Below are positions 60,670 through 63,349 of a DNA stretch of 64,000 nucleotides, piece after piece. The number at the start of each line of letters is the position of its first letter. Position 1 is the stretch's first letter. The stretch is taken from positions 2,623,659-2,687,658 of the forward strand of contig NZ_CP038033.1 in the NCBI RefSeq assembly GCF_004421105.1, given 5' to 3'. Position numbers and translations under genes: made by a program. This DNA comes from Nitrosococcus wardiae (GTDB lineage: Bacteria; Pseudomonadota; Gammaproteobacteria; Nitrosococcales; Nitrosococcaceae). The notes below the pieces were generated by a model. The model saw nothing but the letters and a program-made list of their open reading frames with translations, made no database searches and was not told the origin of the DNA.

Positions 60670-61179
60670 TCCGGATAGTATCGGCTTTATTGGAATATTG
60701 AATGACCATGAACTATGGTTGCCTAAAATAGGTTTTCTTTTTTTTGAATTAACTCTCTTGGAGTGGAAGCCTTATTTACTGCCACCCATCGGGAATTAAA
60801 GTTTCGTGTGATGCAGTTTCGCTTGTGATTGGAAAAAATACCGGAATGAACCGACGGTCCTCTTATTTGCAAATGCGCTGTAGAACTGCCAGTTGTCACA
60901 AAGGGGCGCACCGTGACTTAGAGGGGAGAGAAAATTCTGGGAAGTAATTAAGCAAGCGGGTTGAGAAGCTGTTGGAAAACCCCTTGGCTATAAGCGCTAT
61001 ATCTCCCAATGCTAGAGAGTGGTTAAAACAACCCTTTGAAAACCAGTAAGATATCAAATTCTTAAGGAGCAGGGACTTCCCTAAATAATTTATTGAAAAG
61101 GTTTTCCAACAGCTTCTGAGGGGATGGGATGTGGCAGTGCTTACCTTGTTGAACGGTCAATGAAGAGGAAGCGAGAGAG
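60670..61179. other. Intergenic region
   Basis: Roughly 510 bases with no convincing gene; contains the inverted-repeat element at 60964-61117. The last bases provide the transaldolase ribosome site (GGAAGCGAGAGAG). Confidence 0.5.
60964..61117. repeat. MITE-like element with 18-bp terminal inverted repeats
   Basis: AGAAGCTGTTGGAAAACC (60964-60981) and its exact complement (61100-61117) bound 154 bases of non-coding DNA. No transposase is inside and no target duplication was clear. The size and termini fit a miniature inverted-repeat transposable element or a large processed hairpin. Confidence 0.6.
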
Positions 61180-62289
61180 ATGTCTAATACCTTGGTGCTT
61201 TTTGAGCATGGTCAGTCGCTATGGTTAGACTATGCAGGCCGGGACTTGCTAGTCAATGATAGCTTAAAGCAGCTAGTTACCGCAGGGGTGAGGGGAGCTA
61301 CCCACAATTCGGCCCAGTGGGGTGACACTATCAATAATACCCATCATTACGATGACACCCTCCGTGATTTAGTGCAAGCGGACCATGAGATTGATGAGGC
61401 CAAGCTTTACCAGTGGCTGCTCATTCAGGATACCCAAATAGCGGCAGATATTCTGCATCCTGTTTATGACAGCAGCCAGGGGGAAGACGGCTTTGTGAGT
61501 ATCGACGTCTCACCACAGTTTGCTTACGATACTCAAGGAACCCTTGAAGCAGCTCGCCATCTGTGGAAAGAGATTAATCGTCCTAACCTTATGATTGGCG
61601 TGCCGGGTACCCAGGAAGGGTTTCCTGCCATTGAGCGTTTACTGGCAGAAGGCATTAACGTCAATGTGACCTTGCTGTGTTCAGTGTCTGGTTATGAAGC
61701 GGCGGCGGCAGCTTATGCCCAGGGCGTTGCCATGAACTCAAACCCTGAAAGAGTAGCTTCCGTAGTCTCTTTCCTGATCAGTGCAGTGGATAGTAAGATA
61801 GAGTGGCAGTTGGAAAGAAGGGGAACTCCTGAAGCTCTTAGTCTCCAGGGTAAAATCGCCCTCGCCAATGCCCGGTTGACCTATCAGGGCTTTCAGCGAT
61901 TCATTAAATCCGACTTTTTTCTTGAGCAACAACAGCGCGGCGCCCGGGTGCAGCGATTGCTTTGGCCGAATCCCCGCATGGAGCTGCCTGGCTATTCTGA
62001 TTTGGGCTATGTAGAGGACTTAATTGGGCGGGATACCGTAGTGAGTATGAGTCCGGAAATGTTGGACGCCTTTGAGCACCATGGCGCGATCCGAATGACC
62101 TTGGATGACCCCTTTGGAGAGGCTGAGCGAGATTTTAAAGATTTGGAAGCGATGGGAGTGGGATTTGAGAGGTTGATGGAGGAATTACAAAAAGAAAGAA
62201 TAGAAGCCAATCTTTATGCTTATGAGCAGTTGCTGCTGGTTTTAAAGGACAAGTGCCAGGCCGTTATGAAAGGGTATGCAGCCCCGTAG
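61180..62289 (+). CDS. Transaldolase homologue lacking catalytic residues
   Basis: 369 residues with clear transaldolase-family sequence (QSLWLDYAGRDLL, FAYDTQGTLEAARHLWKEIN, AEGINVNVTLLCSVSGYEAA, LQGKIALANARLTYQGFQ). The Schiff-base Lys of the usual IKVPAT motif is Gly140 (LMIGVPGTQEG). The usual Glu in SLEVSP is Asp109, the Arg in FSVSRY is Gly, and the Arg in FVSRVD is Ala202. The TSNPTIF loop reads THNSAQW. The chemistry is probably lost, so a structural or regulatory role is suspected. It precedes a divergent PRPP synthetase after 64 bases. Confidence 0.9.
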   Translation: MSNTLVLFEHGQSLWLDYAGRDLLVNDSLKQLVTAGVRGATHNSAQWGDTINNTHHYDDTLRDLVQADHEIDEAKLYQWLLIQDTQIAADILHPVYDSSQGEDGFVSIDVSPQFAYDTQGTLEAARHLWKEINRPNLMIGVPGTQEGFPAIERLLAEGINVNVTLLCSVSGYEAAAAAYAQGVAMNSNPERVASVVSFLISAVDSKIEWQLERRGTPEALSLQGKIALANARLTYQGFQRFIKSDFFLEQQQRGARVQRLLWPNPRMELPGYSDLGYVEDLIGRDTVVSMSPEMLDAFEHHGAIRMTLDDPFGEAERDFKDLEAMGVGFERLMEELQKERIEANLYAYEQLLLVLKDKCQAVMKGYAAP

Positions 62290-62353: not shown

Positions 62354-63349
62354 ATGAGCCATAGTGATTTGTGTCTATTTGCCCTGAGCGGGAGTAATTC
62401 TTTTGGCCAAAAGGTGAGTGAAAGGCTGGGTGTAGCCTTATCTGAGCATGAAGAAAGGAATTTTGAAGACGGCGAGCATAAAACTCGTCCTTTGGTCAGC
62501 GTAAGGGAGAAAGATGTCTTTGTCATTCAGTCCTTTTATAGTGATCCTCAGCAGAGCGTTAATGATAAACTATGCCGTTTGCTGTTTTTCATAGGGGCCT
62601 TGAAAGATGCTTCGGCCAAACGGGTGACGGCTGTAATTCCCTATCTATGTTATGCTCGCAAGGATCGAAAAACCAAATCCCGCGATCCGGTGACAACCCG
62701 TTATGTGGCTAATTTATTAGAAGCGGTCCAGACGGACCGGGTGGTGACTATCGATGTCCACAACCTGGCTGCTTTCCAGAATGCCTTTAATTGTCGGACT
62801 GACCATTTGGAAGCAAAAAAACTGTTCACAGGCTATTTTTCGTCTTTGTCGGCTCTATCAGAAGAGAATAAGGTGGTCGTGATTTCACCGGATGTGGGGG
62901 GAGTAAAGCGGGCGGAGCAGTTCCGAGAGACTTTGAGTAAGGCGCTGGGAAAAGAAGTCACCACGGCTTTTATGGAGAAGCAACGTAGCGGCGGTGTGGT
63001 TAGTGGCGGAGCTATGGTTGGTGAGGTTAAGGATCGAGTTGCTATCATTATCGATGATTTGGTAAGTACCGGTACCACCTTGGCTCGGGCTGCCAAGGCT
63101 TGCCAGGAGCAGGGAGCAAACAAAATTTATGCTGCAGCCACTCACGGTTTGTTTGTGGGGCAGGCTAATCAAGTCCTCGCAGAGCCTGCTTTGGAAAAGA
63201 TGATCATTACGAACACCATTCCCCCTTTTAGGTTGAATGAAGAGATCATTAGGGAGAAATTGCAGGTTGTGGATTCGGCAGGGCTATTCGCAGATGCCAT
63301 TCAATGTCTTCACTCAGGGGGATCTATCGTTGAATTGTTAGACACTTAA
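62354..63349 (+). CDS. Ribose-phosphate pyrophosphokinase, divergent
   Basis: 331 residues. PRPP synthetase motifs are present but divergent from the usual 315-residue Prs: [40 protein letters not shown] (ATP-binding loop), [13 protein letters not shown], and [20 protein letters not shown] (PRPP loop). It would make PRPP from ribose-5-phosphate and ATP. A main Prs probably lies elsewhere. Follows the transaldolase homologue. Confidence 0.88.

Follow-up and report, generated by a model that had tools for sequence, protein, structure and literature searches.

A probable pseudotransaldolase gene next to an accessory PRPP synthetase gene in Nitrosococcus wardiae

Results and discussion

The TAL-C locus

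The window, a 64,000-nucleotide stretch of the single contig (4,022,640 bases) that makes up the genome of the marine ammonia oxidiser Nitrosococcus wardiae, contains an open reading frame that runs from an ATG at 61180 to a TAG stop at 62289. It encodes a degenerate homologue of transaldolase, here named TAL-C (Table 1). The protein scores 173.8 bits for PF00923 (TAL_FSA; E 6.5e-51), where the gathering cut-off is 27 bits, and is thus a member of this family. Residues 7 to 353 align with the solved PDB transaldolase 3r5e_A (E 6.4e-56), indicating full-length homology. TAL-C falls below the cut-offs of both NCBIfam transaldolase models, scoring 348.2 against 367 for PRK03343 (transaldolase) and 221.4 against 233.75 for TIGR00876 (tal_mycobact). 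It resembles transaldolases of this type over its full length and shares the Pfam family with them, but differs in having lost the Schiff-base Lys, the Glu, the Arg and the TSNP and AST..K loops. AlphaFold2, supplied with a three-row alignment, gave a model of TAL-C with a mean pLDDT of 43, too low to serve for fold searches.

Table 1 Coordinates of the features discussed
Feature	Coordinates	Strand	Basis or remark
Element of about 160 bases upstream of TAL-C	60961-61124		terminal inverted repeats (ends 60965, 61100)
TAL-C, degenerate transaldolase homologue, 369 aa	61180..62289	+	ORF, PF00923 match, alignment
Codons 41-44, THNS, normally conserved TSNP loop	61300..61311	+	alignment
Codon 109, GAC (Asp), normally Glu	61504..61506	+	alignment, codon reading
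Codon 140, GGC (Gly), normally Schiff-base Lys	61597..61599	+	alignment, codon reading
Codon 202, GCA (Ala), normally Arg	61783..61785	+	alignment, codon reading
Codons 263-268, PNPRME, normally ASTSTK/ASTGTK loop	61966..61983	+	alignment
Accessory PRPP synthetase (ribose-phosphate diphosphokinase)	62354..63349	+	64 bases downstream of TAL-C
TAL-B of N. wardiae (L003)	G000:C1:2369613-2370716	-	lysine-less transaldolase paralogue
Transaldolase-transketolase, N. wardiae	L213:601-3546		one frame
Transaldolase-transketolase, N. watsonii	L215:1287-4238		one frame
Transaldolase and transketolase, N. oceani	L214:1358-4518		two adjacent frames
Protease-like gene beside the degenerate transaldolase, Methylophaga sp. 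OBS4	L062:10227-12662		protease-like gene assigned by eye

Three TAL_FSA genes are present in the genome: TAL-C, a second paralogue that we call TAL-B, and a gene in which transaldolase is fused to transketolase. The fusion protein (981 aa) retains the lysine, in the sequence IKIPATTA, and is the kind of intact paralogue for which the preliminary description had proposed a search. Four Nitrosococcus genomes were compared (N. wardiae, N. halophilus, N. oceani and N. watsonii), all of which contain a match to the ammonia monooxygenase family (PF02461). In N. watsonii, as in N. wardiae, the two enzymes form one frame (981 to 983 aa); they occupy two adjacent frames in N. oceani.

Active-site residues

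TAL-C was aligned with 113 homologues. The resulting 114 rows comprise TAL-C, 100 matches with E <= 1e-50 from outside the N. wardiae genome (drawn from a class-wide sample of 369 genomes), ten sequences from close relatives or the same genome, the locus L076 and two further Nitrosococcus copies. The column of Gly140 holds Lys in 108 rows, Ala in four and Gly in two, and all six rows without Lys are from Nitrosococcus. The I-K-[IV]-P motif bearing the Schiff-base lysine of an active transaldolase (EC 2.2.1.2) is thereby broken in TAL-C. The conserved Glu of the active enzyme, found in 111 of the 114 rows and which we take to be E96 of TalB, is replaced by Asp109. Ala202 stands where 111 of the 114 rows have Arg, presumably the phosphate-binding R181 of TalB. 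The AST..K loop has also lost its conserved Ser (Asn264) and its conserved Lys (Glu268), so that neither the phosphate-binding Arg nor this loop survives in the form seen in active transaldolases. Asn43 is retained within the otherwise altered TSNP loop. The replacements of Lys, Glu and Arg and the changed SNP loop had all been put forward in the preliminary description, and the alignment bears them out. The same description listed an Arg to Gly change at the VSRY position; Gly171, which precedes Tyr172, is indeed there, but the column is variable (Arg in 83 of 114 rows, otherwise His, Gln, Val, Gly, Ser, Ala or Met) and the change is weak evidence.

A sequencing error is unlikely: no single base change turns Lys into Gly (two or more are required), and a second Nitrosococcus genome has identical residues at these sites. 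The Arg to Ala replacement also takes more than one base change, and the second genome, that of N. halophilus, carries the same substitutions. We consider the chance of an assembly or sequencing error to be negligible.

At least one of Lys, Glu and Arg is missing from seven rows: the TAL-C proteins of N. wardiae and N. halophilus (L004), a relative from Methylophaga (L005) and four TAL-B proteins. In the other 107 rows, which have all three residues, 60 columns are at least 95% conserved, three of them being the columns of these residues themselves. TAL-C keeps 40 of the 60 in both N. wardiae and N. halophilus, the Methylophaga protein keeps 39 and the TAL-B proteins keep 50 to 52; the poorest of the 107 intact rows retains 96.6% of the conserved columns that it covers. 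Much of the framework is therefore preserved, as the preliminary description had it. A phylum-wide sample of 398 genomes yielded eleven additional matches that were examined, beside 17 more that were listed; all eleven carry the standard residues at the ten positions inspected.

Transaldolase is a textbook Schiff-base enzyme, and Lys144 of the yeast protein is reportedly essential, judging by the title of the 1993 work of Miosga. A review that includes this work in its reference list likewise describes transaldolase as acting via a Schiff base formed on a lysine of the active site (PMC4470864). Since this lysine is essential, we infer that TAL-C in all likelihood has no transaldolase activity. 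A replacement lysine was sought and this candidate explanation was rejected: none of the 11 lysines of TAL-C lies in the barrel strands, which were assigned by eye from the alignment, and there is thus no obvious substitute. The Schiff-base Lys, the Glu and two phosphate-site residues (Arg and Lys) are replaced and the assigned barrel strands are devoid of lysine, which makes transaldolase activity very unlikely. That TAL-C is still a transaldolase, working through another lysine or with help from the active paralogue, would fit with the part of the framework that is kept; set against the lysine-free strands and the change of Arg to Ala202 and of Lys to Glu268 at the phosphate site, we regard it as highly improbable.

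Selection on the gene

TAL-C of N. halophilus is 91% identical to that of N. wardiae, with 34 amino-acid differences and a full-length frame in both species. For this one species pair, dN/dS (Nei-Gojobori method, own script) is 0.172 with a dS of 0.27. Twelve neighbouring gene pairs range from 0.048 to 0.28; TAL-C lies inside this range as the second highest of the 13 pairs. The preliminary description had named relaxed evolution with stop codons in relatives as evidence that would tell against its proposal; the frame remains full-length in N. halophilus. Given the identity and this dN/dS, TAL-C does not look like a decaying gene. Slow, functionless decay in the two species would be in keeping with the rank of TAL-C among the regional gene pairs and with its absence from the same place in N. 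oceani and N. watsonii. We nevertheless judge decay to be improbable in view of the two full-length frames, a dN/dS of this size at the observed dS, and a region upstream of TAL-C that is conserved except for one insertion. The inserted element (Table 1) is missing at that site in N. halophilus and has one more match (89%) in the N. wardiae genome.

Between the two species, the pocket segments differ at 6 of 80 columns and the remainder of the protein at 28 of 289 (Fisher p 0.67). The rates are similar, which means that the altered pocket is under neither more nor less constraint than the rest. Asp17 to Ala in N. halophilus is among the six pocket differences. Polar residues still present in both TAL-C proteins include Asn162, Thr164 and Ser197, with Asp17 present in N. 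wardiae only. The main rival explanation is that TAL-C is a new enzyme, its barrel using Thr164, Asn162 and Ser197 to act on a different ligand in a reaction without a Schiff base. The retention of these three residues in both species and a pocket that is no more divergent than the rest speak for such an enzyme. The Fisher test, however, reveals no extra constraint on the pocket, and with Asp17 replaced in N. halophilus and both Asn162 and Thr164 absent from the Methylophaga copy, no constant catalytic set runs through the clade. A new enzyme seems unlikely to us, and TAL-C more probably does a non-catalytic job.

TAL-B and the origin of TAL-C

TAL-B is a second lysine-less paralogue and occurs in all four Nitrosococcus genomes (L003, L031, L177 and L178). 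Its dN/dS of 0.075 between N. wardiae and N. halophilus indicates purifying selection, and in two loci (L070 and L072) it lies about 6 kb or less from gnd, with zwf also present in L072. TAL-B resembles TAL-C in lacking the Schiff-base lysine while being under purifying selection. It differs in that Lys is replaced by Ala with Glu and Arg kept, in its separate origin and in passing the NCBIfam cut-offs. The two copies that were scanned both score above the TIGR00876 and PRK03343 thresholds, and TAL-B would for that reason be annotated as active.

A tree of 45 rows was built with the active-site segments removed. TAL-C of N. wardiae, its N. halophilus counterpart and the protein from Methylophaga sp. 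OBS4 form a clade (support 100/95) inside the lysine-bearing transaldolases, and TAL-B forms another (100/99). Constraining TAL-B and TAL-C to a single clade cost 79.7 log-likelihood units (p-AU 0.00026), and a shared origin was rejected. The lysine was therefore lost twice. In our favoured reading, TAL-C descends from a gammaproteobacterial transaldolase that was active and belonged to the TIGR00876/PRK03343 type.

The Methylophaga protein (L005, the same gene as L077) retains the Lys and has lost the Glu, the Arg, Asn162, Thr164 and both loops. This combination suggests a possible order of events in the TAL-C clade, in which the phosphate site and the Glu would have gone first and the lysine later, in Nitrosococcus. 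Members of the clade were found in 3 of the 63 genomes of the order. A scan of genome contigs with two peptide patterns, which are narrow and do not amount to a census, returned two loci: L076, which is truncated at a contig end and has Lys, Glu and Arg, and the degenerate L077. In two scans of viral contigs, no relative turned up. A plasmid search gave 70 records, all below 60% identity, the best among the matches listed being 39.5%.

Beside the degenerate transaldolase of Methylophaga sp. OBS4 lies a second, divergent gene that appears protease-like. It is 41 to 49% identical to the long matches in the genus Methylophaga, including one from that genome itself. These low identities make it possible that the contig was transferred or is a contaminant.

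The neighbouring PRPP synthetase

The accessory PRPP synthetase gene follows TAL-C on the same strand after 64 bases in N. wardiae (65 in N. halophilus), and the two are perhaps co-transcribed. We describe this synthetase as accessory because N. wardiae carries another, 34% identical to it, which adjoins a gene that by eye resembles IspE. At the synthetase locus of N. oceani and N. watsonii, a geranylgeranyl-reductase-like gene directly adjoins the synthetase, and a tblastn search of these regions gave no sign of TAL-C.

Outside the genus, matches to the synthetase with E <= 1e-70 were found in 24 of 368 sampled genomes. None of these 24 loci has a transaldolase of the TAL-C type within 1.5 kb, and a general gene module of transaldolase and PRPP synthetase was consequently rejected. 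Within the same distance, 18 loci have a kinase-like gene (our own label, the gene having no Pfam match), eight a dienelactone-hydrolase-like gene and seven a phosphoribosyltransferase gene. The accessory synthetase subfamily (L082-L105 and the window copy) thus recurs in other Gammaproteobacteria in the company of phosphoribosyltransferase, hydrolase and kinase-like genes.

With TAL-C absent beside the synthetase in two sister species and at all the outside loci, adjacency by itself does not show a partnership between the two proteins. As far as seen, the arrangement appears specific to the Nitrosococcus lineage. The link to the adjacent synthetase, for which the preliminary description had proposed a binding test, is therefore unsupported beyond same-strand adjacency in two species. 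We note that the degenerate Methylophaga transaldolase lies directly downstream of a phosphoribosyltransferase gene, relatives of which are those near seven of the 24 outside loci. This neighbour was noticed post hoc and counts as no more than a hint.

Proposed role and significance

TAL-C combines the two properties of a pseudoenzyme, loss of catalytic residues and a gene kept by selection, the latter as seen in one species pair. We conclude that TAL-C is probably a pseudotransaldolase and that what selection maintains in it is a function other than the transaldolase reaction. The preliminary description had spoken of a pseudoenzyme with a new role. Its first part agrees with the lost catalytic residues, the largely kept framework, the dN/dS value and the lysine-bearing paralogue; selection speaks for the new role only indirectly.

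A tentative mechanism can be outlined. TAL-C no longer has the residues that form the Schiff base and hold the sugar phosphate. It would be co-produced with the accessory PRPP synthetase and would bind either this synthetase or the active transaldolase-transketolase, serving at the pentose-phosphate/PRPP node as a sensor or as a binding partner without catalytic activity. We offer this partner or sensor mechanism as a possibility only.

Pseudoenzymes are a familiar class of protein. The eukaryotic PRPP-synthetase-associated pseudoenzymes (PRPSAP; PMC13252144) resemble the model for TAL-C in the idea that a dead enzyme is retained at the PRPP node to regulate an active partner. They differ in being dead copies of the synthetase itself, whereas TAL-C is a relative of transaldolase whose interaction with any partner is hypothetical. 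In plants, a TalAB-type transaldolase homologue has likewise been retained alongside an active enzyme, but it belongs to another subfamily than TAL-C; only the plant enzyme of the TAL type (cd00955), to which the TIGR00876/PRK03343 models correspond, is reported to have been active in E. coli lysate (PMC4407918). No report of a lysine-less transaldolase was found among the matches listed in the open-licence literature.

It is conceivable, if rather doubtful, that Nitrosococcus, a genus of autotrophic ammonia oxidisers, turned transaldolases into regulators twice, with TAL-B near oxidative pentose-phosphate genes and TAL-C by a PRPP synthetase. The dead barrels would then sense or scaffold flux, the one lysine-bearing N. 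wardiae copy being fused to transketolase. Two separate, apparently selected losses of the lysine in one genus would offer a natural test of how the transaldolase barrel can be used without its chemistry. For models of nitrifiers, counting "transaldolase" genes can overstate transaldolase capacity, because TAL-B passes the annotation cut-offs without the lysine.
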